Shown here: piece after piece, positions 1,892-56,765 of the stretch
How the letters are laid out: every line of letters starts with the position of its first letter
How positions within the stretch are numbered: position 1 is the first letter of the stretch
Assembly (NCBI RefSeq): GCF_000006565.2
Contig: NC_031478.1
Coordinates: 3,243,127 to 3,307,126 of the forward strand
DNA length: 64,000 bases
Direction of reading: 5' to 3'
DNA from: Toxoplasma gondii ME49
Taxonomy: Eukaryota > Apicomplexa > Conoidasida > Eucoccidiorida > Sarcocystidae
Program-made: the position numbers and the translations under genes
The notes under the pieces: model-generated
The model's database searches: none
What the model was told of the DNA's origin: nothing
The model's input: only the letters and a program-made list of their open reading frames with translations

Positions 1892-1925
<34 letters not shown>

Positions 1926-3138: not shown

Positions 3139-3144
3139 TTTAGC

Positions 3145-6067: not shown

Positions 6068-6103
<36 letters not shown>

Positions 6104-6773: not shown

Positions 6774-7161
6774 CTAACTGGTCTTGCTGGCCGGCGCTGA
6801 GGCCATCAAGTCCCGAGCGTCACCGAAGGAGATGTTTTCCAGGAAGAAGGGGTGCCAGTTTATGTTTTCGATCCAGTCGTTCCACCTGCAAAAAAGCACA
6901 AGAGAGGCAACATGCAACGAAGCCTATGGAGGGCGGCGGGAAAGCAAACACTCGGCACACCGCAGAAACACAACTCTGGGACGGTTCGATCCGAACCACT
7001 GGTTCTCAAACCGGTTGTCTGCTTTTGAAGGCGGTCACCACGCACCAGCATAACTCGAGATTGAGAAACTCTGGGAGCCCTCTCGGAGGAACGTCGTGCA
7101 GTTCGATGGTCCGCGCATTACCGTGTGGTGTCGGCAAATAGACACAGAATCGAGCAGACAT
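6774..7161 (-). CDS. Small two-exon gene, 75-residue protein of unknown function
   Basis: Exon 1 is 7161-7046 and exon 2 is 6885-6774. The donor (CTG then GTGCGT) and the acceptor (TTTTTTGCAG) join in phase to give exactly 76 codons including TAG. The product is acidic and aromatic. It contains ELHDVPPRGLPEFLNLELCW before the junction and WNDWIENINWHPFFLENISF after it, and ends in DLMASAPASKTS. No signal peptide or clear membrane helix is visible, and I do not recognise a family. The clustered Trp/Phe/Asn residues do not look like chance translation of GC-rich DNA, which is the main reason to believe it. The ATG at 7161 is the nearest in-frame start; a further upstream exon cannot be excluded. 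Confidence 0.55.
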
Positions 7162-7937: not shown

Positions 7938-8408
7938 TTACACTGTGGTGCTGAAGGAATGCGCGATTCGAGGGAAAATGGCACTCCTTTGAAAGGAGAG
8001 GATTTCCTCTTGAATAGACTCCACTTCAACCGCAGGGAGTTCCGGAGGAGCTGCGCGCGTGCGGTTGTAGGTGTCGTACACCGGCTAGAAATACAGAAAG
8101 CGAAACGACCGGTGGAGTGAAAAACACGGCCGTTCCAACGAACCGCGGAAAACAGAGAGAACGATGGAAAAGGAAATCGCGAAAAGAGATATCAAGCACA
8201 TGCATTCCTTCTTCACGAAGCGCAAACACGTATAAGAAAATATACTCCTACGTATGCAGACGCTAAAACCCCCTCACCCCTACACACACTTGCATTCCCT
8301 ACAAAAACGCCTCTACAGATCAACATAAATATATGCATACATATACTTATTCACACAAATACTTATACACAGATACATATTTATATCTGCATAGAGCAAC
8401 ACAAACGC

Positions 8409-8451
<43 letters not shown>

Positions 8452-25400: not shown

Positions 25401-25525
25401 AAGAACGCCTGTACATACACCTACATTCATGCAGATACACGCATATGTCCCCACATTCATACATATATATATATATATATATATATTCATATATGTACAT
25501 ATAGGTACATATATGTACATATAGG

Positions 25526-25563
<38 letters not shown>

Positions 25564-27789: not shown

Positions 27790-28599
27790 AAAGGAGACTG
27801 AAAATGAAGAGAACGGACGGGAAGAGACGCGAAACGCAGAGGCGAACGGGTCAGAGAAGAAAAGAGAAGAAGCAGAAGAGAGCGGACAGGGAGGAGAGAA
27901 AAAAGAAGGAAGGAACGTTTCGAGGGAGACCGCAGAGAGGGCGCGAGAAGACAAAGAGAAACGTCAGAGAAATGGAGACGCGAAGGGGAGAGCGTAGCTG
28001 GAAGAAAACAAATCCCAATAACGGCGGGAGAGGGAAAGGCGAATCTCCGCGGCTTAGAACTCCATATCGCCTGTTGCGAGTATTCCTGTTTTCAAGCACT
28101 GGGAGTCCTGCGCTTAAGCATTTTCATTCCGCCTTCTCGGATGTATGTACAGCGCTCCCCTGCAGATTGAGGCGCGTCAGGAGGACGAGAAAACGATGCG
28201 ACCAGGAGTCTGGCCGTCGTGCAGTTTGTTGGTCCTCTTGCATGTCCAGATGTTTTTGTTTTCCCCGCTCCCGTCGTCTCTCTTCAGACGCTTCCGTGAA
28301 AGAGACGCATTCGCCTTCTCTCTCTCTCCCCGGCCCATAAAGCAAATCTGTGTTTACTCCACCCTGAAGCTCTCGGAGTTCGTCCTCGTTCAAGAGAAGA
28401 GCAGGTGGAAATCTCCGGTTGTTTGCCCCTGCGTTTCACCTCCAGAAAAGAGTGCAGGGAGAGAGAGTCGAAAATTCTGCTTCACGGTCGCGACTGCGAA
28501 GAGACAGCTAGGGCGTCAACTGGAGACAGTGTCCTCAGTGAAAAAAAAAACGGGGAAGGTCCGCGGGCGTCTGCCTGCGTGAGCGCTCTTCTTTCCTCG

Positions 28600-28794
28600 C
28601 CGAGGAACACTGCGCTCGTGAGTCTCCGAGAAGCAAGGACGCGACGAGAGTTGTTTCGGCTGTGGAGCCTCGGTGTTGAGGGATCCCAGAAGTTTGAGGG
28701 AAGGTGATGTTGCCTGTGTTGCGAGCGCCGCGACGATCTTTGCGGCCTGCGACTTGTGAAACGCGCATCGATACACTTGACGATCTGGCAAGAC
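28600..28794 (-). CDS. Possible exon of an unrecognised gene
   Basis: A good acceptor (CTCTCGGTGTCTCAG) opens a frame reading VLPDRQVYRCAFHKSQAAKI and then an Ala/Ser/Leu-rich stretch. No family is recognised and the donor near 28607 is only fair. A further possible exon (NEDELRELQGG and following) lies at about 28360-28390. Together they may be part of a minus-strand gene just upstream of the P4-ATPase, or alternatively its 5' leader. The spans 27790-28599 and 28795-29352 show nothing I can support. Confidence 0.22.
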
Positions 28795-29352
28795 CTGAGA
28801 CACCGAGAGAAAAGGCACGGGAGGACAAGGCAAAGAGAGAGAGGAGGAAAGTCGCAAGTATGTCGAGAGGAAACACAAAGAAGGAGACAGGACAGGGAGA
28901 AAAGCAGCGAGGAAAGAAGACGAACTCGCTTGCGAGTGCGGCGAAAGCAAACAAAGCGCTCGCAACTGGAGAGGAGAACTCTGTCGTCGACGAGAGGATC
29001 CAAGGAAAAAAAAGACACAGAGGCAGGACAATGGAGAGGTAAACTTGAAGTCAAACAACAGGACAAGTTAAAAAACAAGAGACATGGGATGCGCCTTTGT
29101 TTTTCGCAAAAGTGCAGACGAAAAACGAGGAAAAGAACTTGCGGCACCTGTCGTCTTGTCTCGCTGTGGCGGGCGAACAGCGAAGCCCAGAGGGCATCTG
29201 AGGTGAAACGCGAGAAAAAGCGAGAGCGCTTCTTGCTGGAATCCGAAAAAAGAAAAGCAAACCACACTCACGAATAACACAGCCAGCGAAAGTGAATGAA
29301 ACGGAGTGAGTTTCGCCGAACGAGGTCGAGGACGACGGTCCTTTTTTCTTTC

Positions 29353-30373
29353 TCAGGCGTTCGCATCCACCCGAATCAGCCAACACCGCTGCATGCAGTT
29401 AATCCAGAGTTGGTCCGAAACGAGCAGCTGTTTTGAGAACGCCATGCATCGAACATCATTTCTTCTATTTCTCTTTACCGCGAACATCGACCAGAACTCC
29501 TGGAAAATACAGAGGGAATCCCCCTGCGTAAAAAACAGAGAGTCTGCACCATCCATTTCGCCGAAGGAAAAGCTAACACAGCCATCGAAGTCATGTCTTC
29601 ACTGTTCCCCGCTCCTACCGCCGTCCAACACTCTACTCCAAAAACCATGTCATCGGTATGCATGTATGGATAACCAAACAGACTGAATTACATATAATTA
29701 TATATGTATATATACGGTAAAACTTCCATAAGTCTACGTTCCGCAGCTTCCTTCTTCCCAAAGACACTTTGTTCGAAGGGCGACGCAGAAACTCTCCAAA
29801 GTCACCCGATATATACCTTCATATCTATGCATGCAACCCTGGTTTTTCAATCCTACGCTTGTAAGACGAATTTAATACTTAAGCAACATATATATATATA
29901 TATACGTACTTATCTCAATAGATGGTACTGGAGGTCTCGAATAACGTCTGTAATTTGTGTTTTTGCCATATCAGCAGGGATGTTGAAGACAGGGAAATGC
30001 CTCAGTTTCGCATTTCTGGAAAAAAAAGGCTGAAAGATGCCTCTGAGGGCAGGGACCCTAACGTGTACAAAGAATCATCCTGCTTCCTGCCTGTCTCCAT
30101 CTGCACATGTCTCAAAAGAGCATGCGTCTCTGCTTGTGTGTATACTATGTGACTGAGGAAAACTCCGTGAAAGATGGCTTTCTTTACAGGTACGGCTCTG
30201 TCCATACACATGGAGATCAGGCGCTTAAACCTGAGACTTATCAACAGACGCTCTAGATCCGTGGAAGTGGAGGTCGATTGTGGCCAGCGACTTGCAAAGA
30301 ACGTGTAAAGTGATCTGTTTAATTCTGCAACGACTTCCAGCACCGGTGGATCACTTCCCCTGAAAACTCGCAT
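29353..30373 (-). CDS. Candidate two-exon gene, about 110 residues, unknown function
   Basis: Exon 30373-30188 encodes MRVFRGSDPPVLEVVAELNR and further Leu/Arg-rich sequence, ending FKRLISMCMDRAVP at a GTAAAG donor. Exon 29499-29353 opens after TTTTCCAG with EFWSMFA and ends WLIRVDANA at TGA. Both junctions are phase 0, giving 111 codons. Composition looks protein-like with amphipathic helices, but I recognise no domain. An acceptor-like TTTCTAAAG just above 30373 suggests that earlier coding exons may exist. The intron holds a TA microsatellite at about 29889-29904. Confidence 0.33.
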
Positions 30374-31029
30374 CGTTTCCTGGAGGCGGCACCTTTAGAA
30401 AGAAAATCATGACCCCGTGACAGTTTACAAGTGTTCAAGTAGCGCAAAAAAGGCGACAGTTTACCATGCAAGTACACGTCAGGTCCCTCTAGCAACTGGA
30501 AGCGCAGCAGGAGAAAGAGGCAGTTTCAAGAACATGCTTATTTTCCTCTCGTAGACCGAAAAGCATGAAGATGACGGCTTGTCTTCGTTCAAGAAACGGC
30601 ACAGACGTTTTGGCCTGCCTTCTCCCGATACCCAGCTTCCCGCCTGTCTCGTTTCCTTCCTAAGTTATCCGGAAATCTGCCCACAGCGCCGCGGAAGTCT
30701 TGAGGATATCTCTTGTTCGTCTCGTAAGGGAGCAAAGGTCGTGACGCCTTCACTGTACACCTCGCTGAAGAGCCTTTCTCCCTTTAGTCTGTTGGTGCCA
30801 TCCTTCCGCGTTGTCTGTCTTTATTCACCAGGCATGCAATCCCATTTGACGAGCAACTGATGCCTTGCTCCACGTTGCACTTTGTTTATGAGGTGGGGTT
30901 CTCCCAGCCGTCTGGAGCTCACGGTTTCTTGCGATCTACTACGATTCTGTCGAGTGGCTCAGATCGTTATTTTCTTTCCCGGAGTCTGCAAGTTTTCTCA
31001 CGTGTATCGCGACAGACATGATGACCGTT
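30374..31029. other. Spacer between candidate gene and the BTB gene
   Basis: Probably 3' UTR of the ankyrin-BTB gene and the start region of the candidate gene to its left. The plus-strand frame at 30579-30860 has no motif. Confidence 0.45.
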
Positions 31030-34000
31030 TTAGGTGTTGAGTTGGAGAGACTCGAGAAGCTGATCGATTTTTTCCACTTTCTCCTGATACAGCCCGCGCA
31101 GAAGCAGCACATCGGGAGCCGCGAGAAACTGTCGCGGTAGACTGGCGTCGGTGGAGAGACGCCGGATCCTCCGAAGAAATACGCTGCCTCTCTCCCGGCG
31201 TCCCCGCTCTGTGCTGTTGAAAATTGTCTGCTCACTCCCTCGCGCTTCTGAGTCGCCAGAGTGACAAAAACAACCCGATTGGCAGAAGGGAACATTCTCT
31301 GTACAGCCTTGACAACAGCAGTGAGCGCTGTCAATAGAGATATCATTGTAGTCGTCTTCCCCCGTGAAAGGCAGGACGCCAGCCGGAGCGAGCCACTGAG
31401 GAAAACGAAAGTCCAGGACGCAGAAAAGAAGACAGACACAACATGCAGATAAAGACAAGAACAAACGACTCGCTCCAGAGGCATTTGTACGCATTCCAAA
31501 TACCGACTGTGGCTGTGTCTCCTTCCAGAGGAAATGCCAATCGAAATCCACATGTATGTAGACACAAGTGAGTTCACAAACAATTATATATATATATATA
31601 TATACGTGTGTGTGTGAGTGCAAATATGAATATGGTTTGAGAAGGAGCGCATGCCATTCCGGAAATGACCAACAGCATCTTCTGAGACAATGGTGGAGTC
31701 GGGAAAAAAGCCGTTTTTTCCTAAATGCCAACAGTGGATGAATGTAGACATGATTTCCTCGAACAGCGAAATTTCGCGTCCAATTTCGTGAACGCCCTCC
31801 TCATGTGGAGGAAACAAGTTTAGACGTAAACGCCAGTACAACTATACATAAGCTCTCTAAACAACAATTCACATCTAGATATTTACAAATATATGTAAAT
31901 ATACATATATGTATACGTCTATTTATTTATCTGCATAGGTACGCTCACCTCTCTCCATATTTATATTTGATAGGGGATATGGTGAAACAAAGATTCGGTT
32001 GTATCTGTGCACAAGTTTTGACGGTGCGAATGTGCTTCTAGCGGTTACTTTTTATCTGTTCTCCCCACGGGTTCTCGTCTCTCTGAATCGCGCAAAACAC
32101 GGACGACTCTCCACGTTGTTTTCGTCCTACAAGTGCGGTAGCTGTGGTGTGAATTGTTCCCCTGCTCACCTCTGTCGCGGCTGGTGTGTCTTCACTTCCA
32201 CAGAGATTTTCGCTGCCGCCATACATCTGCGCCAGAGCATCTACGAGTTCTTCGACGACAGGAATGGAGTCCACAGCCTCTCGATTTTTCAGCGAGTGAG
32301 CAGAAGCGAGAACCAGCTGGTGGAACTCAAGGCGAGGCAGCAAAGAGTCGATTTTCTCCGCCATCACAGATGCACAACGAAACACAAGACGGTCGAGCCG
32401 AAGCAGATCCGCCACTCTGTAGACTGCGCAAACGTTGGAGGCGTCGACGAGGGGCGACAGAGCAGCCGAGCAGACGCTCACCAGTCCTGAAAAACAAAGG
32501 GAAGCAGTGCTAGGAATGATACATTTCAGAGTAAAGTGCAAAGCAAAAGAAAACGCAGAACAGATACAGACAACACGAAAAATAACCGTGGAAAAAGAAG
32601 ACCCGCAGATGCATCTACAAAGGGGCGTACACAAATATCTCTCTCTCTCTCTATATATATATATATGTCGAGTTGAACAGATAAGCATGGAGGCACATAG
32701 GAATCTAGCTGCAATTCATAGCTACTTCTCCGATGCCAGTATGATCGAGACCATCGTACTGGTAGTAACCATCTCTGAGACAGAGCTATTTATATTCTTT
32801 GTCTGGAGAATACTTCCTACGAGAGGGTCTACCGGTTACATCTGGAAGGGCTCCAAAGGGTGAAGTGAAGTCTTCAAAGTCTACGCTGTAAGCGATTTGT
32901 CGATATGCACATGCATATGTATGTACGTTTCGGATATATCCATGTACATGGAAATGCCTGCATGTATGTTTTTGAGAGAGAGGGGAGCAGTAGAGCTACC
33001 GTCGGTGGCCCAAAGAGTGGGGGCCGACGGAGCGAAGATGCGCACGAGGGAAATGGTAAAAACAAGACGTGGAGTCTGGCCTTTCGATCGAGCGCAAATC
33101 AGCGACACTTGAAGGAAAAAGTTCCCTGCACGAGCCTGAGCTACGATAATGACTAACTCAAACTGCTACTCAAATGAGGAAGACAAGACGCGCATGCAGA
33201 TACATGAAAGTCTAGAAGTGACGAGAGACACAACCAACTCCCAAGCTGTCTGAGGCACTTCCCGGGGAGAGGTGACGCAACATGGAAGGACCACCGCAGA
33301 AAAGAAATAAGAAACGGCGAGAAGACTGCAAGACTCACCGGGCATGAGAAACATACTTCCACATTCGATCAAACGCAAAAGGGATTCTGATTGTCTGTTC
33401 TTTGCTGGCTGGACGAGGAATGAAGGAACTTGAAAAATAGCGTCCGTGTACATGTATTCGAGGACAAGGGCAAAAGACCAGACATCGACCTGTGGAAGCG
33501 AGAGGACGGAGACGCAGTCAAAGTCCGGGGTTGGTGGTTGTGTGCGGCTGCTTCTTCGTCGTTGGCCTTCTTCCTTGCTTTTCTCTGTTTCGCAATGCGA
33601 AGAAAAGTTGCCTCGAGGATTCGAAGAACGGGAAGACGCGAAAGAAGAAGGCGAGAAAGGAACAGTCGCACGCGTGGGCTTCAGAGGAAAGTCTCGCATG
33701 TCAGGGGAGACACGGACGGATAAATGGGGACGGTAAGAAGCACAGGAGACCGGCCGGGAGCGGGAAAAGCGGCGAGGGGAGCAGGCGCAAGGAGAAGGTG
33801 AGGGAGCAGAGGCAGGAGTCGGCGAAAGTGAAGATGAAGAGTAGTACGAAGGAGGAGAGGCAAGAGCCGCAGAAGAGCGAGAAACTGTGTTTTCGACCTC
33901 GTCGCTGTGGCAGGCATGAGAAGAGCGGCAACATGCGTACTCGAGAGGAAGAAGATCTCTCGAGAAGTCGACTGAAGAAAGCGGGGGATGCTTTACCTCG

Positions 34001-37000
34001 CGAAACGAAGAATGAAGGAGAGTGGCAAAATACTCGCTTCGCCTCTCCACAATGAATCGATGACAGGGGAAGGGAACTTGCGATGGGCCTACGTAGACGC
34101 ATAGGTCTGCACTGGCAAGAACAACATCTACGTAGCTGTGTTCTTCCTTTGACTCCTTTTGATGTTCCTCCTCATCTTGTTCATTCGCAGTCCTCACGTT
34201 GTGCTCCACTTTTTCCTCGTTCCCCGGATCTCTCCCCTCCCGTGCCCTTCCTGCTCTGTGCTGCCTTTTCTCTTCCGTACAATCATTTACACAGCATCCA
34301 CGCCACCCCTGCCCCTCTTTCACGTCCAGTCCCATTTCCGCATGCCTCGTCGCCGAATCCCTTCGCCGACCTGTTTCATTCAGTCTCCATTTGCCTTTCG
34401 TCTGCCTCTCTCCGATGGTAGTTCCCTCGTCTTCCCTCTGTTCTCCGTTCTGCTCTTCGCCGGCCTCTCCCTTCCCTACCTCTGCCTCCTCCGGCACCCC
34501 CACAGTTCCGCGGCCTAGAGGCGCTTCCAGGCGAGGTTCTTCCTTTTCCGATTTGCCCCCTCTACAACATGCTTTCCATTGCCTCTCTGCATGCCTGAAA
34601 ATTCTGGCAACTCCGCGTCGCATGTCAGAAGCCAACAGAGAGGGGAAGTCCTTCCGGGGACTGAGTCCGAGGGTGTGAGGCGCAGCGAGGAGCTTTCGAG
34701 AGCTCTGGCGATGCATGTGGGTGTCGATCCGCACTTTTTCTTCTTCGATCCTCTTCCGGAGGTCTTTGAGTTTGAAAGCATTCGCTAAAGTCAGAAAACA
34801 ACTCACATCCTCGAGGGGAACTTCCATTTCGTCTGTGTACAAGTACCGAATGATTTCAGTCAGCAAGCAAGGGTAGGCTGCGATGAGGTTGGCCACTGAG
34901 GCAGACGTCTCAACGGCACCGGTGCCCGCCGAGTTTCGCTCGGACTTTCCCCGCTCGAGTTCTTCTCTCTCTGCTCTTGGCAGGGACCTGAAACACTGTG
35001 AAGATCCAGCTTCTTTGTCGTAGTCCGCTTCTGCCACCACCTTTCCTTGTCGCCGCAAGCGGCATGCGACCCGTGTCCGTGGGTCGGAAAACGATCCTGG
35101 GGGGGCCGGAGGGCGAACAGGAACATTTAGAAGGCAGCGGAAGATGCAGTACGGCTTAGAGAGCTGCCGCCTGAAGAAGGAGGAGCGGCAAGCAAGGATC
35201 AACTTGTGTGCATTAACAACCGTGGCATCCGGTGCCAGCCAGACGGAATCAACAGACACCGCAGCGAACTGCGGATTCTTCAAGACACTCAAAACCAGGC
35301 GAGACAAACAGGAAGGCGACGGGACAAAAGTCCACGAATAGGGTGAGGAAAGCGAATTAGGTGTGGCCTGAGAAGCAGAACCGGTCCAGGCAGCCGAAAG
35401 GGGGTTAGAGGATCGTCGCCTCGGCGTCGGTGCTGTCTCCGGAGGGGGCGAGGTTGGAGGCTGATTCTCGTGTGTTGAAAGAGAAGCGACCACTCCATCG
35501 GAGTACGAGCAAGAAGACTCCAAAACGTCTGCTAGCGGAGCTGAAGGTAAACAAGATTGAACGGCCGGCGGGTGAGCTGCTGAACCGAAAGCGAGAGCGG
35601 ACGAACTAGCATACGACGAAACTGCAAGATAGAGATCCCGAACAGACGGAGAAACGGAAGACGAGGCCACTGGGGTTTCAGTTGGTGCCACTGTTTGACA
35701 GATTGAAGATGGAAATGCAGCATGTCCTTCAACCACTCCACCGTTCGTTGTTTCACTCGCGTGGTGATGATTCTGCTTGCTCCTGTCTCTTTCTCTAGAG
35801 CCGTCTTCTGGCTCTCGCGGGAAGGAAGACGTTTCGTCACGGATGTATGCGGAGAGAGCACAAGCCGACACGGGTTTCAGAAGGCCAGCGCTTCCTTCAA
35901 GAAGGGAAGCAAGAGAAACCGCACAGCGTCTATTTCGTCGCGGTCCTCCGTCGTTGTCACACTTTCCCAGGTGCTGGAAAGAGCTGCGCCGACTTCTTCT
36001 GCCTCCCTCACGAGGAAGCGAAACTTGACTCATCTGTCTTGTCAATGGGTTGTTTCGTTGGCGGGGACGCAACCGGGACGCCGGCTGGTGGTGCCCCCTT
36101 GCGGAAGACCTCTTCTCAATGTAGTGTGGATGGAACTCCGGTTCTCTTCGAGTCAGGTGCTCAGTGTTGCCTTGAGGAAGACTGTGCCGATCAACGACAA
36201 CAAACCAGCCGGTCTTCTTCGCCCTGTCTTCTTCGTGAAGAACACCAGACGAAACTATGGAATGATCGTGAGCGAGTCCACAATGATCGGGAGGAACCAG
36301 AGACGAGGGGGACGAAGCAGCGGGCAAATATGTCGAGAGTGGTGAAGATGAGAGAGAAAATGGCCCATACAGACGTGCATCAGAAGGCAATTCGCCTCCA
36401 ATGGTGATGGTGCAGTCCGAAAGAGGGCACGCAACAAATAGAGACCTAAAAAACTGTGAGTAACGGTCCTGGTGAACCACCACTGTCTGGCGATACCTAC
36501 GCAAGACAGCTCGAATTCGATCGTTGAGAGCGCCATACATACACCTGGAACCATAGTACAGAGGAACAAAAAAGCAATTAGAATGGACGGAGATGGTGAA
36601 CGAGGGAACACATGAAGGAGGATGGGCAACCCAGACCAGGCCTCGACCAACACAAAAGCAGAATAAGAGAACTTTGGATGGCAGCGAGGAGGTACCGAAG
36701 AAATGCTGTCAACTGATTTGGCGGGAAGTGGCAATAACGAGACTTGCACACAAAACGTCTGGACGTAGCGTCCCATTTCTGTGTTGCGCACAACAGGTGC
36801 CTCCTATCGGTTTCTCACAAGCTTTAATGAGCACTTTAGGCCGGGAATTGCAAACTGGACGGAGACTGTTCTCTCTTTTCAGGAAGAGTACTCGACAGTT
36901 TTACAGCAGTTTCAGGTGCACAAACACACAAACTAGACACGATTTTCCGGGTTAACCAAAAAGACAGCGAAGCAAAAGATATCGAATGATAGTGAGAGGT

Positions 37001-38066
37001 GAAACGTGTCAAAAGTGATGCCTCAGAAATATCCGATTATTGTGTATGTGGAAGCACAGAAATGATGACGGTGCTACACGATCTGCCTTACGTAGATCCA
37101 TTTGCCGGTGTGTTTGAAAAGCACGACGTTCATGCACTCTACCTTATGATTGGGTAGAAACAATTAGAATACGGAAGCTTACCTTTCTCCGTCAAATGTC
37201 CCAGGGTGGCACCGAGCACCGTAGTTGATGAGCAGTCGCACAACATCCAAATGACCTCCGTAGCAGGCGTAGTACAAAGGGAATGCGTCCCACTCATCTC
37301 GCAACTGTGTAGAGAGAAAACGAAAAGTCGACAAGTGTAAGAGAAGTGCTAAGGCCGACGGGAAGCCAAGCCAGGATAACTGCATTGCAGAGGCAATATC
37401 CCCGAGGGCAGGACAGAAGGCAGTCAAGGCACGAGGAATACACAAGATGCGTAGGAGCTAATAGTGTAGGCGGTCGATTAAAATAAACCAGTTTGTTATT
37501 TAGCCCAAGAATACACAAACTGTTAACTGCTTGCATGGTCTTGACTTCAGAGTTTCAATAATGCTCCCCCAACTGACGTAGCCCCGTTGTTCATCAACAC
37601 ACCTTCGCGATACCCAGTCTCCTGCATCGCAAGATGTGCTTTCTGACGACTTGGACCATGAATTTCCACACTGTGCAAATATGAAGCGATCAGCTATTCG
37701 ACGACCGAGAACAACTCTTCCTCCGTTCTGTTGCGGCCGAAAAAAGTACGACTGATTTCGGCTTCACGCAAGCAGTTCGATACGCTCTGGAGCAACGTCG
37801 AGTGAAGGAAAGTGAAGGACAGAGGCAGTAACCTGCCCGAAAACAAAATTAGCCTCGGATGATATGCATACATTAACGTTGACGTCTCCTTCCTCGAGCA
37901 TGTGCCTGACTGAATCGAGGTCGCCAAGCTTGCACGCCGAACAAAACGCTTTCTGTCTGTCGGTGTTTGGGACCGTCTGGACAGTTTGGAAGCTCTCAAT
38001 AACAGCGAGGCCATCGTGACCAAGCATAACGTCAGAAAAACCGCCAGGCCGTCCCCCAGTCACCAT
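31030..38066 (-). CDS. Ankyrin repeat and double BTB/POZ protein, ABTB1-like
   Basis: Likely a scaffold or cullin-3 substrate adaptor, as for animal ABTB1/BPOZ. Exons are 38066-37872, 37304-37183, 36544-33339, 32486-32170 and 31395-31030; phases close to 1402 codons. An ankyrin pair comes first: FCSACKLGDLDSVRHMLEEG, then WDAFPLYYACYGGHLDVVRL and the linker CHPGTFDGERCMYGALNDRI, which matches ABTB1 closely. BTB1 carries VVNAHKLILACRSSFFRRQL (about residue 545) and RYLYTDEMEVPLEDV (about 670). BTB2 carries VPFPCHRFIVERRSEYFATL (about 925) and LVLEYMYTDAIF (about 1135). A BACK-like segment with VDSIPVVEELVDAL follows, and the last helix is EKVEKIDQLLESLQ, both as in ABTB1. It is nearly three times longer than animal ABTB1 because Ser/Arg/Glu-rich disordered inserts split the BTB folds. 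The exon at 31395 rests on acceptor and phase; most of it is not conserved. Confidence 0.9.
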
Positions 38067-39365
38067 TTCGTGACTCAGGTTTCCTGTCAACAGAGGCGAA
38101 CAGCACGCATCGGGTAACGTAGCTCCACGGTGACGTTGTCAGAACTGTGCCTGCGGCTCGTTTCGCGATCGTTAAATGAAGCGCCGAACTTTTCCATTCC
38201 ATCGAACAGGCGGAATAGAAGAAAAGTGAGTCCCTCCTCCCTTGGCAAGTTCTCGGATTCGCTCGCACGGAACCAGACACTCGAGGCTCTTTCACCTCGT
38301 CAGGAAAGGGTGTCCCTCGTATCTTCCATCTGCGGAAAATGAGAATTCCACAGAGTCAGAACTCACCAGTGGCTAGTAAGGACTTCCCTTATTTAGCCCA
38401 ACTGCTCGATAATGTTTAATGTTAGCTCATCTGAACACCAGGTTGCAAGATTAACTTCCGATCTGTAATCTGTATCATGCAGAAGCAACACAACCTGGCA
38501 CATCTGGGACTTCCCCGCTAGTACCTTATTGTGGCATCCGGCCAGTGATGAGCAGCGTAAGGCGATTGGTGGTGCGACGAGATCTTTTTGACCAACTGAA
38601 TTATCGAGAATTTGGAAGAGTGGAAGCTGCTGCAAATGGAAGTCAGACACCACACAAGCCATATAGAGAAAAAGAACAACCATCTCCGCTGCAAGATCCG
38701 GCTGTCAAGCCAAAAGATTCAAACGAGCTCGTGGGTGCGATTGCAGTGCGGTTTCCGAACTCTTGGCGCTAACGAGTCACTATTAGAAAACACTCTAGGA
38801 CTCAAAAGCCCGCATGAACATACGCGGAGCACATGGACGAGAAGCAACTGACCAAAAGCAACCCTTTCAAAATAGAGACGCTTCCACAAGCACGTTTCTT
38901 GTTTAGCGTCCAGGCGAGTCTCACCATTGTGCTCGTACACACAACTACTTCCGCATGCTGCAGTTCTGCCTGCAAACGCTTCAACGCAGAGAGGGGTCAT
39001 TTACGGAAGGACTTCGTGAAGTGGTGCAACGGTTGTGTGTAAACCTAGCAAAATGTTGTGACAGTCTCATGCAGTGACCCTGAAAAATGGAATAGTGACG
39101 AAAATTGTCCGTTTAAGCAGCAGAGAAAGCTGTGTGTGTGCCACAGTGCCCACAGGTGTGCGGATAGCTACTGGATCGACAACCATTCAGGAGTCCTTTG
39201 TTTACATTCAGGAGCATACTGTTAAACTCAGTGATACTGCATGTTCACACTAATACAACCCAGAATGAATAAACACAGGCACCTTCAATGGGTCGAGCGA
39301 CTGGTCGTCGCACCGGCGCCTGAAGGAGGGGAAGACCTCCTACAGCATAAGCAGTGGAATGAAAA
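38067..39365. other. Left part of divergent intergenic region
   Basis: Upstream of the ankyrin-BTB start, so expected to hold its promoter. Short frames on both strands (for example 38393-38683) have no motif. No TATA box or terminator can be assigned. Confidence 0.45.
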
Positions 39366-39430
39366 AAAAAGTCATTTGAGTCACAGGCTCTCCTATAGAT
39401 TCCCCTATTAAAACTCCCATACTCTGACTT
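39366..39430 (-). pseudogene. rpoC2: Nuclear copy of an apicoplast rpoC2 segment
   Basis: The minus strand reads SQSMGVLIGESIGEPVTQMT, which matches the highly conserved (A)xSIGEPGTQ(L/M)T block of the beta-prime RNA polymerase subunit. In plastids that block is encoded by rpoC2. Only about 20 residues remain before a T-run (39360-39370) and unrelated sequence. The lower-coordinate flank (39250-39360, FHSTAYAVGG frame) could be another fragment, but I cannot place it. Confidence 0.72.
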
Positions 39431-39570
39431 AAAATGTTTTTCCCAAGATAGCACCGACAATAACATGACTGAAATGTATACCAGTAAGTATAAATAGACC
39501 ATTACCAAATCCATTATCGTTAATATAAATAGATAGACCTAAGTATTCCGTACAGACTAACATTTGGAAG
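39431..39570 (-). pseudogene. cox3: Nuclear copy of mitochondrial cox3 fragment
   Basis: The minus strand reads VCTEYLGLSIYINDNGFGNG, then LFILTGIHFSHVIVGAI. This is the helix-loop-helix region of cytochrome c oxidase subunit III, with the His-rich LTGxHxxHVxxG motif. About 45 codons are present without start or stop. It abuts apicoplast-derived sequence on both sides with no nuclear spacer. Confidence 0.8.
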
Positions 39571-39640
39571 GAGACCGCGGCTGCTGGCACGGAGTTAGCC
39601 GATACGTTTTTAAACTTAAACGTCAGTATTATTTTTTTAA
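39571..39640 (-). pseudogene. rrs: Organelle SSU rRNA fragment (530-loop region)
   Basis: The minus strand contains GGCTAACTCCGTGCCAGCAG followed by CCGCGGT, the near-universal 530-loop core of bacterial-type small-subunit rRNA, flanked by AT-rich sequence. The intact bacterial-type core favours an apicoplast source over the fragmented mitochondrial rRNA. It is far too short to function. Confidence 0.75.
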
Positions 39641-39641
39641 G

Positions 39642-39714
39642 CAAAAAAAGGACTTGAACTCTTAAGTTTATTAGATCCTAAATCTAACGCGTCTACCAAT
39701 TTCGCCACATCCGC
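39642..39714 (-). tRNA. trnL: Apicoplast-type tRNA-Leu(UAG), nuclear copy
   Basis: It reads 5' GCGGATGTGGCGAAATTGGT and continues with a canonical D-arm, an anticodon arm TTAGA-TTTAGGA-TCTAA (anticodon TAG), a short variable loop and a TTCAAGT T-loop. The GCGAAATTGGTAGACGC D-arm is typical of plastid tRNA-Leu. The 3' acceptor strand is a T-run giving several G-T pairs and a T-T mismatch, and one T-stem pair is broken. Position among other organelle fragments makes it a dead copy rather than a working gene. Confidence 0.68.
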
Positions 39715-39792
39715 ATTCTAATCTTAGTTAGGCCACGCCCAGTAATTTTGGAAAACGCTTGTATCCCGCGTATTACCGCGGCCTCAGGATGT

Positions 39793-39827
<35 letters not shown>

Positions 39828-40946
39828 AATATGGACTATCTGGAGAGATCAGCCAGCATTGCATCCTATTAATAGAGAACTGCATAGGTTTTCCATGAGA
39901 TCTATTTGGAAGAAGAGGCTCGGATTTCCACTGTCAAATACTCTTTGTCAGCTACTTCCAAAGGACCAGTCTTCGGCCGAAACTGACTGCTGTTGCGTGC
40001 TTGTTTTCGTTTTATTGGCCCTACACCGGATGATGGCCACAGACCGCATGATCTATCCGTACCTACGCCGTCCTAGGTAGTCTGTTCGTTGAAACTCACT
40101 AAGGCAAGCATCAAGAAGATTCAGGCCCTACTTTTGCCCGCAACAAAGGTATTTGTGCTGTCACTGGACTCTTTCAGTGACACGCGGGGGGAAGGCTACA
40201 GCCCGAAAGCATATGTTTTTGTTGGAAATCCACACGAAAAGGCAATGGCGATTGCCGTTTTTACCCACTGAACTGAAGTGTTTCGTGTATTTGCATACTC
40301 TCTTCTTCGTGTTATTTAGTGTAGGGACCATCGTTGCTCGTCTCCAACCCGTCAAGACGGACAGAACCGGATAGTTGGTCTGCGAAGTTCCCACTAGTTC
40401 GTACGTATACGTAACCCAAGAAACGAGGTTGGCATGGAAAAATGCACACACCTTCAACTGATGCCACGCAGCGGCGCTGCACCCCTAAAGTGTAACTCAT
40501 CGCTGTAAGTGAATGGACGTTCAGACAACTGAGGTACGGGGACCGCTCCGTCCCTGCAGCGTGCATGCACCGATTCCAGACAAACGTATGCACACTCACA
40601 TACCTTGCGGCTGCGTGGAAACCCAGTGCGTCCCCACTGGAAGGTGGCATCTCTAGGCAGTCCTTCTCTAATAACTGGTCGCTGGTAAAGAGCTATTCAC
40701 GCTTGCTGTACAAATTGTTATCCATGCGCCTACATTCCATAGGTTTGAGACACATGCCTTTTGGCAGCACGTTCGGCGCCGTCAGACGCAGCGCCTGTGT
40801 TCGGTTGGAAAAACGTCTTCCCGTGAAAATCGTTACTTACTCGAAGGGGCTGCAGCCTCGAGCCACTAAGCGTGCAAGTTTGTCTGCGTACTTGAACACT
40901 GATCTGTTGTTGACAGAATCATCCTGTGTTGAGACCATCCGTGGAA
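39715..40946. other. Right part of divergent intergenic region
   Basis: Upstream of the SRS gene, so expected to hold its promoter and 5' UTR. The frame at 40565-41035 runs into the SRS exon in another frame and has no motif. I see no further organelle pieces here. Confidence 0.45.
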
Positions 40947-42342
40947 ATGGCTCGTGTCTGCAGAGTAGCGGTGGGCGTCAGGCAACAGCTCGCTGCATCC
41001 GTCGTCGCTGGCCTGCTCGTCACACTTCTCACTGACGTAGATGCCTCTCCTGTTAATGCGCTGCCGCCTGATCCAGCTGAGTCCACAGTGCCAACGTGCG
41101 ATGAAGGTCAGGAGATGACCATAACTTTGTCGCCCGAGAAAAACGCAGCCAGTTTCATGTGTGGTACAGCCATAGGGAACATTTCACCGCCACTACGTCC
41201 AGCAAAAGAAGGTTTCGAGGCCTTTGTTGATGAAGCGGCGACTACAGTAGTCCGGTTTCACTCTCCAGATGTCCAGCTAATTGAGGAAAATAATGTGTAC
41301 ACAGTTACCGCAGGCATCTTTCCTCCTGTTGGCGGCACGTGGTATCTTTTCTGTTTGGAGCCGGGGATCGGCAGCGCTGCAGTCAACACCGTCAAAAAGA
41401 AGTGCCGCGTAGAGGTCGTCATCAAGGGAACATCTATAATCCGTAAGTGCATGCGAAATACGGCCTTGTTAAACGAATAACGAAAGGCAGTTGCGATAGG
41501 AGCAATCGCGCCGATAACACCACACCTGCAGCAAACTGAAAACAGTGAGCAGCGGAGAAGAGACGGGACAAGACATACTGTCGCGTTCTGCTACACCCTT
41601 TGTTTCTATTGGCCGTACCATCGATGTTTTTGGTTTCCCGCCAGCGTTTTCTTAAGTTGGAGTCATCATTGTCAACAAACCCAGCTGCGTTAGATCCGAA
41701 GGACTCTATCTAATCGGCAGTAGCTGAGTCATGCCAATGCGGATTGTTGCACGAAGTTTACAAAGACGACAGGTAGCTAACAACGCTCAATCTCATATGG
41801 GTTCGTGTGTGTGTGTGTGTGTGTATCTTTGTCTTGCTGGGAATCTGCTGTCACGCCTTGCTTGTCGGGGTGACTCTGCGCCTATCACTCCAGCTCAACA
41901 GTGTACCACTGTGGGAGGCTCAGTTGATCTTCGCATTCGTGGTCCCGGATATGCAGTAACATTTGGGTGCGGTCTGAGCTTCCCGCAGCTTGACCCTCCA
42001 CTGAGCGGAAAGGAGGTATACGTCGGCCGGGAATGCTCAGAAAAGCAGCAGTTGTCAGCGCTAGTTCCGAGTGCAGCGCTCGAAGTGGGACCTGCCGGTC
42101 AACTATATACTCTGTTTGTTGATAAACTCCCTCCTGTGGGGCGATTGTTGTGTTACAAATGTGTAAATGACTTAACCGCTGCATGCAAGGCGTTAATCGT
42201 AGTCCCGCCGTCTGCCGAAGAAGTCGCTACTACGGTCGCCAGCACTTCAACATTCGGACCGTCCTCAGACGCTACAATCGCGCTGCACTCATCCAGTTCT
42301 TATCTGTTGATCGCAGTTGTCTTTCTGCTTCGACTGATGTAG
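40947..42342 (+). CDS. SRS-domain GPI-anchored surface antigen
   Basis: Member of the SAG1-related family of coccidian surface proteins, probably displayed on the parasite plasma membrane and involved in attachment or immune recognition as for other family members. Exons are 40947-41442 and 41894-42342; the CC-GTAAGT donor and ATCACTCCAG acceptor join in phase to 315 codons. An N-terminal signal peptide (hydrophobic core ASVVAGLLVTLL) is followed by two SRS domains, each opening with Cys and a hydrophobic FxCG/FGC strand and containing the PPVGxxxxxC element (FPPVGGTWYLFC; LPPVGRLLCYKC). Domain 1 has four Cys and domain 2 six. A Ser/Thr-rich stalk then leads to a hydrophobic tail (LLIAVVFLLRLM) as expected for GPI addition. 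Sequence identity to a named SRS was not attempted. The intron carries a (GT)n run. Confidence 0.86.
41804..41825. repeat. (GT)n microsatellite
   Basis: Eleven or so GT units in the single intron of the SRS gene. Confidence 0.9.
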
Positions 42343-44420: not shown

Positions 44421-47400
44421 ATGTGTTCCTTGAGAGGGTGGTGGCTACTGGAAGTCGCCGATGAGGCGGCCCCGGTGTTCTTTTATTCCGCAGACCAAAC
44501 CTATTTCGAGGACGGGAGTTTTCGAAGAAGGCGCGAGCAGCCTGGAGGTGCCTCTCCGGGACCTTTGCCGTCGGGAAGAGTTGCTTCGGCTCCTGCAACA
44601 GGATCGGTAACTGGAGGCTCTGGAGAGCTTGAGGCCACTCCAAGGAGATCGAGAACTGTTACAGAGAGCATTTGTGATGAGGAAAAAGGTAGAAACTTGC
44701 ATGCGGTTCGTGTCCTACTCTCCCGACGCTATGCCACAGTCGATGAGAGGTGGCGGAAACTGGCGGTACGTTCCCACTTTCCGTTGGTCTCGACGTACGT
44801 GACTGCACGCGAACTTCTAGGAGAAACTGTTTTCTGCTGTCTGCGTGTTTACATTTAATTTTCACGTATCGACGGCTTTCCGTGTCTTTCATTTTATGTC
44901 ATTGGGTGTGAGCTCGAATCCTGCAACTGCGCAGATTCAGGCGTTTTACCGATAGTGCTTTTCAGCTGTTCTCGACCACTGCACGTTGCCTAAAAATGAA
45001 AACTGCGAGGTAGACACATAGATCTCACGTTGTCTTACCGGACTGCTGAACAAGGTAGAAACGCAGGGGCAGTGCGGAGGTCGCGAGGAATGATCGCTTG
45101 TCGTGAGCTGCTGTCGGCTCGTATGACGACCGTTTGTTGCGTCTCTCCCACCTGTGACGTTGTGAAAGTATATACGGCAGAACTGATGTGAGGGTGAGGC
45201 GTCGTTCCTAACGGAATCCGTCTTCCCAGAGGCAGCTTTCCCCCGAGTTCCTGGTGTATTTCTGAGACAGCAGTTTACGGGTAAATCCCGTACGCAGCAC
45301 AGGTGACTTGCAGCGTATCTTTGTATTGCGCTTCCCCTTCCAGCTTGAGACAGACGATCGTTCTGCGGCGAGTTCCCATTCTCACCTAAATGCCAATGTG
45401 ACACGCAGGTTTTTGGTTCTACATCAACTCTTTTTTGGCAACGAGAGTTCCTCGGGTTTCGCTTTTTCCTCCACAGGGTCCGGGGTACGTGCCTCTGCCG
45501 TCCGACGAGGAACTTCGGCAAGCCTTCGAAACGCAGCTTTTGTACGAGCCGGAAGACGATGCGTGGAGGTGCTGTGCATGCTGTTCGACAGCGAGCGGCG
45601 GTGAGAGAGGTTCGTCGCTTCTTTCCTCTCCGTCTGTCTCGAGCTGTCAGGCGCATACGGCGTCAGGGAGCCCCCCCGAGTCTCCGTTTCACGTGGAGGG
45701 AGAGCGACCAACAGCTGACAGCTGTGTTCTTCACTCAGAAGACGCCGAGAACGAAGACGGCATTTTCGAAAACAATCCGTCCTTCTATTACGACTTGTAT
45801 CAGGAGAGGTACTTTGAGGAACCCACATGGCCCTGTGGCCCGACGGCGATGCTGGTTCTTCCTTCTCGTGCTTCCGACTCTTCTCCCCCTCTCCCAGGTG
45901 GACGGGGCTCTCCTTCGCTTCCTGGGCGAAGCTGTTCTTCCTGGGATAATGCGCCCTCTCCGTCCCCTCACAGTCACCGCCTTTCAGATCCAGGGCGCTG
46001 TGAGAGGGGGCTTTGTTGTGGATCGTGTAGGAAGAGGCCCGAAAGATCTCAGAGAAAGTCTCCGTTTTCTTTGTCGGACGAAGCAGGCGCCAGAGGCGTC
46101 TGTTCTCTCCCGTACCGCACGGCCCCTCAAAGAGACGCCCTTTCCGGATACCCGTCTCCCTCAGCCTGTCCTCCGTCTCCGCCCAGAACGGGCCACGGTC
46201 TCCCTGTGAACAGTCCCCTCTTCTCGATTCTGTGGCCCGTCGTCTTTGTCCGCAAGGAGATACCTGCGTCCCCGACGGAGACAGATTCGCTCGCCCTTTC
46301 TGGAGCCGGCAAACCAAGTGCCGCCGAGTTGACCGGGACCCTTGCGGTCCGGCGACAGACCTCCGCTTTTACTGGCGGGACACCTGTCCCGGCGGCCCTC
46401 CTGCGCCCAACTAGCGCCCGCAACAGGCTCGAGCTCGCCGCAGCGGGTCCAAACGGCCAGCAGGCTGAAGACCTCGAAGATGCGCTCTCGGCGGGCTTTC
46501 CGGTCGCCGGATCGAGACAGGGACAGAGCGGCAGAGTGATTGTCGCCTTAGCAGCTCTGGCGATCGACGACGCTTTGGAAGTCGACTCTCTTCACCCGGC
46601 AACTGCACGCAGTTTCGGCTTGCCTCAGGTAGCGATCTGTGCCTCTCGTTTCTACGGCCTGTACATTTATTTTCGACGTAGATTGCCTTTCGAGCGATCA
46701 CACTAGAAATTGTTCTTCATGAATCCTCCGCTGATGCGCTGGGAATCGTGAGACGCTCGTTTGAGTCTGTGCCTCATACTCAGTTTCCTCCAGGTGACGA
46801 TACAACGTAGGGCGTCTCGTGCCTGTGCATGCGTGGCTTCTTCTGTTTCCAGAGTTGTTAACGTGGCGACTCAACGTGTGTTGGGCTGCAGAAAATCAGG
46901 ATGCATGCAGGGGATGTAAACGGAGAAAATAGAGCATGTCGAAAGGGAAAGTACCGTGCCCTTTCAGGTGAAGGTCTCGGCGAAGCAGACAGTGGTCTTT
47001 GTAGTGATTTTGGAGCTCAAACACACGATGACCCCAAACCCTGAGCCGCAGTTCCTCAGACCTCTGCTCGCCAGAGCGTGAAGGTTGTTCTTCCATTCGA
47101 TCTGACTCAGTCCTCTCACAAATCAAGATTTTGGCCTGTTTGTCTGATTCGTTCCCCAACCAAGGTTACTGCAGCTTTCCACGTCCTAGACCATGTGATC
47201 GATCTGTACCTTTCGTTTTCGCTGGCGTTTCCTTCTCCACCACTCGCGACGGATCCGGCTGCGTCACCAGTCAGTGGCGCGTCGAAACGGCGTGACGCTT
47301 CCCCGCCACGGGCCTCGGCCGCCCCTCCGTATGGCTCGCCGCCGTCTCTTCCCCACACGGCTCCAGATGTCTCCGCACACTGGCCCCGGCAGAGGCCTTT

Positions 47401-49916
47401 CGGGCCCTCAAGAGGAGACAGTTCGGCGGAGGGCGGCTGTGGAGCTCACGGCCGGCAGCCTGCCTTGCCCTTTCTGACCGCCCTGCAGCTCGCTCTTCCC
47501 TTTGGGCGCCCGAAGCTGACGTCTCCAACTCTGCTCCAGCACGCATACGAGAGTGTCTCCTCGCTGCCAGTCTCCTACTCGTTCTTGCCGCCTCGGGCGC
47601 CGCGAGAGACGACCCGCCGGAAAGCGGGGGCAAGGGGCCTTTCGAGAGACAGTTTCGACGACGCGAGCGACTGCAGTCGCGGCGTGGCTGAGGAGGCGCG
47701 GGCATCGTCGGGGCGAAGGAGACGCCGGTCTGAGGGGAGACGTAGGAAAGGAGACATGTTCGAAGACGACCCGCAACTATCTCTGGTGCCGCCGAGGCCT
47801 CCGGGTCCAACAGGCCCTGCTCAGTCTCTTGCACAGCTGAGAGAGACGAAAATGAGAAAGGTAAGGCTCAAAACAGCGGTAGACTAAGGAACCTCCGTCC
47901 GTACATAGACAGGCACCCGCAATGTATATTGAGCGATACACACAGCGACATATGGGGAGAAATATTCAACATTGTTGAGGGAGAAACATACAACTACATA
48001 GAGAAGGAAATTTTCAGCTGTATAGAGACGGAAATATTCAACTATACAGACGGAGAAACATACAACTACATATTGAGAAATAGACAACTACGTATAGAGA
48101 AATATACACCTACGTATAGAGAAATATACACCTACGTGTAGAGATAAATATGCAACCAAATAGGGCAAGAAATATGCAGCTGTCCACAGAGAGAAATATT
48201 CAGCAATGTCCGATCGTGTAATGCACTCTGTGCTCAGAAGTTCTGTGACGAAGGTAGAGAGTGTCTCATATCTTCATCTTCTGTGTGACGTAATCCATAA
48301 AGAGTACCTTTTCACCGTTCCCGCCTGAGTCTCTTGCAGACCTTCTTGCGTGCATGCACTTTGAATAGTTCCTGCGTGCATCCACCGAGATCCGTTTTTC
48401 TCACGTGTGAGGAATCGAAAGACTGACGTAGTTTTCCTTTCCTTGAAAACACTCTTCTACGATTTAGATAAACTCCCTGGCCCTCTTGTGCTTCTCTCGC
48501 ACTCAGTGAGCTATTGAGTGACACCAACCGCGAGCGCAAACCTTGGCATTCTCAGTGGTTAGCGTTCGAACCCTGTCCGAGTGCTATTCACACAGTTCAC
48601 TTTTGTAGTGTTTGCCTCTGTCTTCAGTATCTCCAGTCTCTCTCCCCGGACTTTTCCACTCTCGACTCCGCGGAACTGCCGGCGGCCTCCGCAGATCTAC
48701 GAGCGCTTCAGCTCCGGCACTGGCGCCGCCAGCTGGAGGCGCAGCGCGAGTCTCTTTCGAGATGTTCGTTTTCGGGGCCTTCTTCGGACTTCTTTGAGTC
48801 CACGCTCGGGAGTTCTGTGTGTCTCGACTTGGAAGACCAAGGGGCTGCCTTTTCAGATGTCTCTTTCTCTGACTTGTGCCCGCCAGTGGCGGCGCCGCAC
48901 TCGCGGACGCACCACCGGCGCTTTTTCGAGCACGCGCTCTGGCGCCGGCGCGCCACGTCGCCCTGGGCCGGCTCCGACCCCGTTGGCGCCCAACTAGCGA
49001 ACGCCTCGGCGCTTGCATGCGCGTCCGCGTTTACGCCTGCGGCCGCGGGCTCGGTCTGGGCCGTGCCGGCGTGGCTGCCGCAGCTATCGCCCTCGGGGTG
49101 GGTCCACGGAGTCCCCAGAGACAGTGCAGAGGGTGGGGACAAAAGAGGTTTCTCCAGGCGCGAAGCAGGCTCTGCGTCACCTCCGCCGAACCGCGCCTCG
49201 CGCCGCTGGTGGTGGGTGCTCGGCGCGAAGACGAGCGGGAAGAACCGAGCCCAATCCCTCGAAGGTTCCGGCTCGGGGGCCCGCAGGGGCGGGCCTCCAC
49301 ACCCGGCGCTGTCGATAGAGCCGCGCAGACATAAGGGGAGACCATCGTGGTGGAAAAGCTCTCGCGAGGCGAGTCTCGGGGCAGTGGGCGAGGAGGCGCC
49401 GAATGCGAGAGGAGGCTCGTGGGAAGAGGAGCGACATCGAACGGAGCGCGAGTGGCTCTGCGACAGTGGAGCCCTAACAGACGTCGAAGCCTGTTTCGAC
49501 GTCGGGCGGCGCCGTGGACGGTCGAAAGAAGAGAGACACGCTGCGCGGCACCGCGAAGAGCACGAAGGCAGTCTGGTGATGTTGAATGGTGAGCTCACCG
49601 GAGAACGGGTCCCGACTCCAGCTCGAAGAAACAAGCCTTCGTCTTCATCTCTCAGCCCACGAAAAAAACGCCCCTCCGGATTCTCCATCTTCTCGGCTTT
49701 CGGGCGCGCAACGGGCCTCGTCAGCACCCCAGACGCCGACACCCAGCAACGAGCGGCGCAGTGGAACTGGCTGACTCGCCACAGCTGGATTCGCTTTTCC
49801 ATCGTCGAGAACGTCCACTGCGCAATGCATGAGCCGAAACAAGGAGTCCAAGGTCGTGCAGCCAGAGAGGCAGATGAATCCTCCATCGTGGTGAGGCATA
49901 CGAGGCACTCGATGCA

Positions 49917-49953: not shown

Positions 49954-51338
49954 CTGGTCTACGTGTGCGTATTGTATACGCGTTTGCCTGAATTCGTGGA
50001 GTGGAGGGACCTATCTGTGGCTTATCTCTGTATCGAACGAGAAGTCAGGGACCCATTAGAGACGAATGACCCCGACGTGGACAGTGAATCCCTCGGTCCA
50101 CATAGTAGAAGGTTGACCTGTGTTTAAACAGTTCCAGCAGTTTCAAGTGTAGGCAACTCCCCGGATGCATATAAACGTATATATATGTATAAATTTGAGT
50201 GTTTACATCTCTATATCTGTTTGTCTGTGTGTCTGCCTCGATATATATATACATATATACATATACATATATATACATACGCATATGTACATATGTTCGT
50301 GTGCATGCGTGCTCACATGTGAGCTGTTGTGTGCGCTGGATTGGGTTGTGTGTGTCCAGGGAGATGTATACGTCACCGTCTGTCTTCCAAAGATGATGGA
50401 GGTTTCTGCGCCGCTGGCGTTCGCAAGAACCGAGTCTCTCCCTGACGTGTACGTACACCCTACGGCTCGGCTCAGCAACAGGTACGAATCAGACACGCGT
50501 CCGGCAGTTCTCGTTTTGTGAACACAGCTGTCTCTCGGCTCGTCCTCGTCCTCTTGCTTTTTCTTTTTCGAATCTCGTCGCCTCGTCTCAGCGAATCCTT
50601 GAAACTCTCGGACCTCGAGAGGGACAGCTCGCCCCTTGCTTTTATCAAACTCCCTTCTTGCCAAGGGGAGCCGTTCGCTGAGTGTGAAACGGCAGCTCCG
50701 TAAGAATAGTACTCGCGTCTCTCGTGGAGGCGGTTGCAAAGCTGAAAGCCTTTCAAATGCACAAAAGCGATCGTCCCCTTGCTAAACAGGTGCTGAATCA
50801 ACAGGAATCCGATCTGTGTATTCCTTGGCGGACTCACGCGGGAACAGACCGTACGAGGATCCGCTGTGTCCAACTGGGCATCTAAGTTGAAACCTGTATC
50901 TCCTCATCCCTCCGGTTTTTTCGCAGCGCTGTCGATCTCCTCAGCTGCGCTTCTGCGATGCCTCCCGCGCGCCGGGGGGTTGGCGCCGAGCCTGGAGAAC
51001 AGGAAGGTGACCGGGACAAGACCACTGTCTCCTTCTCTTCGGCTAAGGGCCAAGAGGCCCGCAGTGTGCTTGAAAGACACGCACTGCCGCCTCTCGTCGT
51101 CAGTTGCGTCCCTCCGCTTGGAGTGCACTCTTACCTCCTCTGTAAATACCGCTTCGGCAGCCTTCCTTTCTACCCTATGAAAGGTATATCATGTCTGCTA
51201 TTCTACTCAGCATGTCCATAAACTTCTGGAAATGCTTGTGTACTCACCAATTGGTCAAACATAGTCCTCCCATGCTCGTCGAGAGCGCGACTCCAAAACA
51301 CGCTACATTCAGAAAGATATATCGATACAAAGTTACAA

Positions 51339-56333: not shown

Positions 56334-56765
56334 GTGCCGGGTCTCTAAGGGATTTGACTGCATGCGAGAACAGCGTACCCTTCCGCGAGAGTGCAATGCT
56401 GCCGTTGGCGCCTGCCAGACGCGAACGCAAAGACAGAGAAGTCAATTCACGTCGGGGTGTGCCAGCGCGCTCTGCTGTAGTGCAGTCTGCTCTGTGGGAC
56501 AATGTACGCGTTTCTTTTAGGTTGTGAAGACGTGGAGTGAAGCTCAGATTCATGTTTTCGAAAAACACTGGTCAAACGTGACCCAGCAGGTTTTTGTAAA
56601 GCAGGAACACAGAGAGGCGCGCGTTTTTTCCTCGCAGGGGTAAGCCGGGCTTGTGCGTAGGATATGGTGTCATCTTTGACATTGGTGCTTCGGAAGTTGT
56701 TTCGCCGAGAACTGTTGAGTGTCACCGACGGGACTTCGGTGGAGGTCGCGAAGTCATTCGTATGA
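56170..56765 (+). CDS. Alternative 3' exons of AP-5 mu, or a separate small gene
   Basis: Three phase-0 segments follow each other on the plus strand: 56170-56340 (after GTCTTTCAG; QLGFLERQQQNGNRVYIQAV, RALQGQMAVRRRILKL), 56521-56589 (after TTTCTTTTAG; VVKTWSEAQIHVFEKHWSNV) and 56661-56765 (after TTGTGCGTAG; LTLVLRKLFRRELLSV, stop TGA). They look more protein-like than the low-complexity tail of the last AP-5 mu exon, which they overlap in another frame. Splicing from a phase-0 donor in that exon (AGG-GTGAAT near 55881 or GAG-GTCGAG near 55899) would attach them to AP-5 mu. An ATG at 56137 could instead start a 125-residue protein. The donor after 56340 (GTCTCT) is weak. I do not recognise the sequence. 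Confidence 0.35.

Follow-up and report, generated by a model that had tools for sequence, protein, structure and literature searches.

A seamless mosaic of apicoplast and mitochondrial DNA fragments in a Toxoplasma gondii chromosome

Nuclear insertions that combine mitochondrial and plastid DNA have been described in plants as numins (Portugez et al. 2018, PMC6215612), and that study puts them at 2–10% of the organelle insertions in nine plant genomes. In Toxoplasma, over 9000 NUMTs have been reported (PMC9490983), and a separate account gives 8118 masked sites, corresponding to about 1% of the nuclear genome (PMC10948144). Non-homologous end joining (NHEJ) has been implicated in the integration of organelle DNA in this parasite, and MMEJ is seemingly absent (PMC12181080). 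In the literature searched, relevant use of the term "numins" was found for plants only. No paper on apicomplexan mosaic insertions appeared among the matches listed, as seen from title and start of abstract, and the central PNAS 2023 Toxoplasma paper may well describe such mosaics.

Here, we describe a locus of T. gondii ME49 that shares several defining features of numins. Certain mitochondrial and plastid fragments occur together at one nuclear site, and the inner junctions are blunt or carry short microhomology.

Composition and location of the mosaic

The window, a stretch of 64,000 nucleotides, was compared by BLAST with the apicoplast contig and with mitochondrial sequences (sets of 8, 31 and 50) of the same assembly, which comprises 65.28 Mb in 1959 contigs. 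The apicoplast contig (C1959, 34,996 bp) holds apicoplast rRNA, tRNA and rpo/suf genes, as identified with Rfam, ARAGORN and Pfam. Piece borders were set with a stricter BLAST scoring; +1/-1 scoring over-extends pieces and hides some chain members. The mosaic spans about 39368–39920 (553 bp) and consists of eight back-to-back pieces, six apicoplast and two mitochondrial, each 31–134 bp long. In window order, these are:

39368–39441, minus strand: piece 1, apicoplast rpoC2 fragment (API 22408–22482, 92%, E 1e-24; gene sense on the minus strand of the window)
39442–39575, minus strand: piece 2, mitochondrial cox3 fragment (ORF residues 159–202; 99.3%, E 3e-64)
39573–39650, minus strand: piece 3, apicoplast SSU rRNA fragment (API 1269–1345; 97.4%, E 1e-31; source within the RF00177 match)
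39651–39734, minus strand: piece 4, 3'-truncated apicoplast tRNA-Leu(UAG) together with spacer and 6 bases of tRNA-Arg (API 2015–2098; 96.4%, E 2e-34)
39735–39782, minus strand: piece 5, apicoplast SSU rRNA fragment (API 1230–1277; 95.8%, E 2e-16)
39781–39854, minus strand: piece 6, apicoplast LSU rRNA fragment (API 4823–4750; 97.3%, E 2e-30; source within the RF02541 match)
39855–39885, minus strand: piece 7, apicoplast sufB fragment (API 28535–28565; 27/31 bases, E 2e-4)
39885–39920, unstranded: piece 8, mitochondrial stretch of 36 bp (97.2%, E 5e-11)

The original prediction had recognised four fragments (rpoC2, cox3, SSU rRNA and tRNA-Leu) and let the mosaic end at 39714. All four are real, each being a strong match to the organelle contigs of the same assembly at its predicted place, but the pieces number eight and the predicted end fell about 200 bp short.

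The source ORF of piece 1 carries an RNA polymerase domain (PF04998) and that of piece 7 a SufBD core (PF01458); the names rpoC2 and sufB were assigned from these domains together with gene order. The source ORF of piece 2 was identified as COX3 by Pfam (PF00510) and by its match to solved cytochrome c oxidase subunit 3 chains, and the source tRNAs of piece 4 were called in the apicoplast contig by ARAGORN. The left border of piece 1, at an A-run, is uncertain by up to about 15 bp, and in a search of the parasite's own genome this piece was the only nuclear copy found for its rpoC2 stretch. The cox3 piece shows a single change across 134 bp, which is non-silent. Of the 50 mitochondrial sequences pooled, 15 contain piece 8 at 97.2% identity, and an Rfam search of four mitochondrial sequences gave no match that would name its gene.

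The weakest member, the sufB piece, fills exactly the gap between its neighbours. Its score was reached by none of 2000 dinucleotide shuffles and by none of 3000 AT-matched 31-mers from the window. Furthermore, nine 31-bp tiles flanking the mosaic, three on the left (39280–39372, with five bases of the last tile inside piece 1) and six on the right (39921–40106), scored 9–13, against 23 for the sufB piece.

The apicoplast sources are scattered over 22.4, 1.2–1.3, 2.0, 4.8 and 28.5 kb. With these five source regions and two mitochondrial pieces besides, derivation from a single contiguous organelle block, the outcome that would have spoken against a mosaic, is ruled out.

The mosaic is nuclear, lying between protein genes within a contig of 7,486,190 bp (C12). 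On this contig the window covers 3243127–3307126 and the mosaic 3282494–3283046. It occupies part of a 2.9-kb gap that separates two divergent genes, 1302 bp from the likely ankyrin-BTB start and 1027 bp from the likely SRS start. The surrounding features are as follows:

33166–38066, minus strand: left flanking gene, BTB/ankyrin protein (likely first ATG at 38066; provisional, inferred gene model)
39202–39281, unstranded: older mitochondrial insertion, separate from the mosaic event (76%, E 2e-10; ends 86 bp upstream of the mosaic)
40947–41480, plus strand: first exon of the right flanking gene, SRS-domain surface protein (PF04092 at 21.1 bits, cut-off 21.0; likely ATG at 40947)

In the left gene, the BTB domain (PF00651) lies in 33166–36540 and the ankyrin match in 37179–37385, while the putative first exon (37764–38066) is without a Pfam match. 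A further older mitochondrial match of 21 bp is located upstream at 39186–39206.

Junctions, decay and origin

The mosaic is very probably a nuclear insertion of organelle DNA, that is, a numin, in which eight fragments were end-joined during one break repair and then left to drift. In such a sequence of events, the apicoplast and the mitochondrion would have released fragmented DNA, and a nuclear double-strand break would have arisen between the two divergent genes. In a single repair, classical non-homologous end joining would have connected the eight short fragments with one another and with the chromosome ends at the break, and the insert would since then have drifted as non-functional sequence.

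The seven internal junctions are seamless, confirming that no nuclear spacer separates the pieces from the two organelles. Counted on the alignments, the junction overlaps are 0, 3, 0, 0, 2, 0 and 1 bp (sum 6), with zero untemplated bases; pieces 2 and 3 have GAC in common, and pieces 5 and 6 have GC. Under random breakpoints the sum has a chance mean of 4.7 and reaches 6 or more with a probability of 0.33. The overlaps are thus no greater than chance, so that microhomology is not needed, in agreement with classical end joining. Additionally, the two SSU pieces (3 and 5) come from touching sources (1269–1345 and 1230–1277), which overlap by 9 bp, or by 4 bp if the shared junction bases are assigned to the neighbours. 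In a post hoc test, any two of six random apicoplast pieces abutted within 9 bp in 2.1% of simulations, and one shattered apicoplast molecule therefore fits the data. This contact hints that a single apicoplast molecule may have been broken at that point, with both ends filled in and ligated to other fragments.

All pieces diverge from their organelle sources, with 21 differences (events) in 552 bp (3.8%). The spread of all differences across the pieces is uneven (p=0.037), because silent changes concentrate in two pieces, rpoC2 and sufB. If silent changes are excluded, 13 events remain over the 552 bp (2.4%), with no heterogeneity among the eight pieces (p=0.89), and a common age for all of them is the simplest reading. 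Capture at a single break repair, as originally proposed, is consequently matched by the seamless joins and by the even decay outside silent changes, but not by the decay over all differences. Both flanks were also searched in the parasite's own genome for a pre-insertion (empty) allele; beyond the locus itself, only organelle-type stretches of the queries found matches, so the search yielded no such allele.

The uneven raw divergence is what would be expected if separate organelle insertions had accumulated over time at a fragile spot. The older mitochondrial insertion upstream points the same way, since it means that organelle DNA has entered this neighbourhood on two or more occasions. Such stepwise growth nevertheless appears distinctly unlikely, given that nuclear spacer is present at 0 of the 7 internal junctions and that decay is homogeneous after removal of the silent changes; in addition, the plant study found no recurrent cases in rice (PMC6215612).

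The original prediction further placed the mosaic where both promoters should be. That placement is a location, not a result, and a promoter role is unproven. Recruitment of the insert as a regulatory element, active in a region shared by the ankyrin-BTB and SRS genes, would agree with its position in the gap between divergent genes. A PNAS 2023 Toxoplasma paper is also said to describe reporter activity of some NUMTs. We regard this recruitment as improbable: the likely start codons lie about 1.0 and 1.3 kb away, the even decay gives zero sign of constraint, and the presumed motif patterns WGAGACG, TGCATGC and GCATGC are absent from 39368–39920. A role for the embedded tRNA is likewise not expected. 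Its organelle 3' end is replaced by rRNA-derived sequence, leaving it without complete acceptor and T arms, and although ARAGORN and Rfam still call it a tRNA, it scores 35.5 bits in Rfam, whereas the organelle gene scores 55.7. The nuclear tRNA-Leu copy should therefore not work.

On the plus strand of the window, each of the seven pieces whose gene orientation is known reads antisense (two-sided p=0.016). The predicted single strand orientation thus holds for transcript sense; it fails in apicoplast coordinates, because the LSU piece runs opposite and the inverted repeat is the source of four pieces. This coherence is not predicted by random joining and counts against the end-joining reading. 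It is how the insert would look if a polymerase had switched serially between organelle RNA templates and the resulting cDNA had been inserted. All seven pieces also lie in or across genes, and the joins show little or no overlap, as such a route would allow. Even so, we consider the RNA route very unlikely. Ten control chains have two or more oriented pieces, some of their gene strands being assigned from ORF length alone; eight of these chains are mixed in sense and two are coherent, both of the latter with just two oriented pieces. At the mosaic, no RNA-only features (processed ends, tails, CCA) were observed, the spacer between tRNA-Arg and tRNA-Leu is kept, and the joins carry no added bases. 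Since piece 4 spans the tRNA-Arg end, the spacer and tRNA-Leu, the RNA route would need an unprocessed precursor; moreover, Toxoplasma is not known to carry retrotransposons. The shared sense of the seven pieces is probably due to chance.

An assembly chimera of organelle reads can be set aside almost entirely: dozens of small contigs with mitochondrial matches show that the assembly took in organelle reads, but each piece has its own differences from its source, which makes a raw chimera unlikely, none of the pooled organelle sequences matches across a join, and matches to other places are confined to the old mitochondrial stretch for the left flank and to organelle pieces for the right query.

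Silent differences in the rpoC2 and sufB pieces

Of the 9 substitutions that the rpoC2 and sufB pieces carry (at five rpoC2 and four sufB sites), 8 are silent. Under neutral change, this outcome has a probability of 3e-5 to 5e-4 for transition weights from 1 to 8. Silent sites have diverged by about 31% and the remaining sites by 1.3%, which gives a ratio of roughly 24. The silent share also differs (Fisher p=0.001) from that in a control set of 15 coding pieces, 14 of them from fetched nuclear loci and one from the window, where 69 silent and 141 other changes were counted. This count leaves out L071 5182–5242, which lies in tRNA/LSU, and L075 346–366, which has zero substitutions. It retains L075 28195–28288 (0 silent, 12 other), whose ORF assignment may be wrong, and several of the control ORFs are identified by length alone, without a Pfam check. 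The same lean is seen in two controls, L073 (22% vs 2.4%) and L067 (30% vs 5.1%), while the ratio in the other 13 ranges from 0 to about 3.

One candidate cause, change of the organelle after insertion, was tested at the four sufB sites with two nuclear sufB copies, L077 (81%) and L078 (82%), which are presumed to be older and served only for this comparison. Such evolution predicts that older copies carry the mosaic's base. Over the eight comparisons, the mosaic's base was seen once, the extant base five times and a third base twice; this reading is therefore not clearly supported. L077 has the extant base at three of the four sites and a third base at 28541, whereas L078 has the extant base at two, a third base at 28560 and the mosaic's base at 28562.

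As a lead resting on nine changes, the pattern suggests that the donor apicoplast may have been unlike the extant one at silent sites. It is conceivable, though doubtful, that the donor belonged to an apicoplast lineage diverged at these sites (from a different strain group or from a sister species, by crossing), in which case the insert would be a record of past organelle replacement or hybridisation. A scan of the viral_contigs set with the rpoC2 protein as query found no relative. From the silent-site pattern, inserts of this kind might act as dated archives of former apicoplast haplotypes.

Separately, the sufB copies L073 and L069 (apicoplast 29029–29137) have two third-position differences from the extant apicoplast in common, at 29048 and 29081, which are likely to be real organelle changes. 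Four further third-position sufB differences are private to L073.

Related insertions and known systems

Other organelle-derived sequences were found in the window. An older apicoplast chain at 9259–9472 joins API 18702–18819 (80%) to API 8251–8346 (88%; 5 silent and 5 other changes) across a gap of 3 bp, and a single mitochondrial insertion (79.5%) lies at 32722–32852. Weak mitochondrial-like matches (62–77%) at 3876–4006, 30825–30994, 45102–45184, 48499–48621, 50830–50893 and 56644–56713 are either very old insertions or chance. Weak apicoplast-like matches (61–69%) at 8341–8607 and 22026–22221 probably reflect shared AT-rich composition.

Across the genome, apicoplast 20001–30000 and 1–10000 as queries identified many nuclear places, at the least, with neighbouring matches (scoring covered 39 candidates out of 75 for the first query and 39 out of 317 for the second). 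The comparison set comprised 13 further nuclear regions that contain apicoplast pieces. Nine were chosen for listed neighbouring matches (L066, L067, L068, L070, L071, L072, L073, L074 and L075), two as coding copies (L069 and L076), and two came from the right-flank search (L035 and L038). In 11 of the 13, at least two pieces lie within 17 bp of each other, and in three (L070, L073 and L074) both organelles occur within that distance, the mitochondrial piece of L070 being weak (E 1e-4). These mixed-organelle chains are located at L070 134–550, L073 1–357 and L074 20–451. The chains comprise six pieces in 540 bp in L066, six in L038 and five in L067, so that the mosaic, with eight, is the longest of the chosen set. 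L031 and L057, with mitochondrial pieces only, have two neighbouring pieces each.

The chain at L066 136–675, a single-organelle counterpart of the mosaic, consists of six apicoplast pieces in 540 bp, filler-free and in mixed orientation. L057 1320–2029 holds a 0.7-kb cox1 insertion (78%); next to it lies a short cox1 piece in the opposite orientation. Finally, a 1.6-kb apicoplast insertion (79%) at G000:C7:1557388-1558994 covers sufB and its neighbour and is far longer than the usual pieces.

The mosaic is a clear and unusually complex case of the organelle DNA insertion already known to be common in Toxoplasma. It provides a base-level, non-plant example in which plastid and mitochondrial fragments came together before or during what was probably a single nuclear repair, and bears on how organelle DNA leaks and gets joined. 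It also cautions against dismissing short organelle-like sequence in Toxoplasma chromosomes, which can be genuine.

Templated (RNA-derived) insertions at breaks also bring together short pieces from several sources. The mosaic resembles them in the one transcript sense of its seven oriented pieces, and differs in that RNA features are absent and control chains are mostly mixed. With the NUMTs and NUPTs of T. gondii (Namasivayam et al. 2023, as cited in PMC12181080 and PMC10948144) it shares the kind of genome and the build from small organelle pieces within nuclear DNA, and NHEJ is implicated there. Compared with plant numins, the host is an apicomplexan and eight short pieces are packed into 553 bp, whereas the maize example described in PMC6215612 has four fragments in 3,573 bp.
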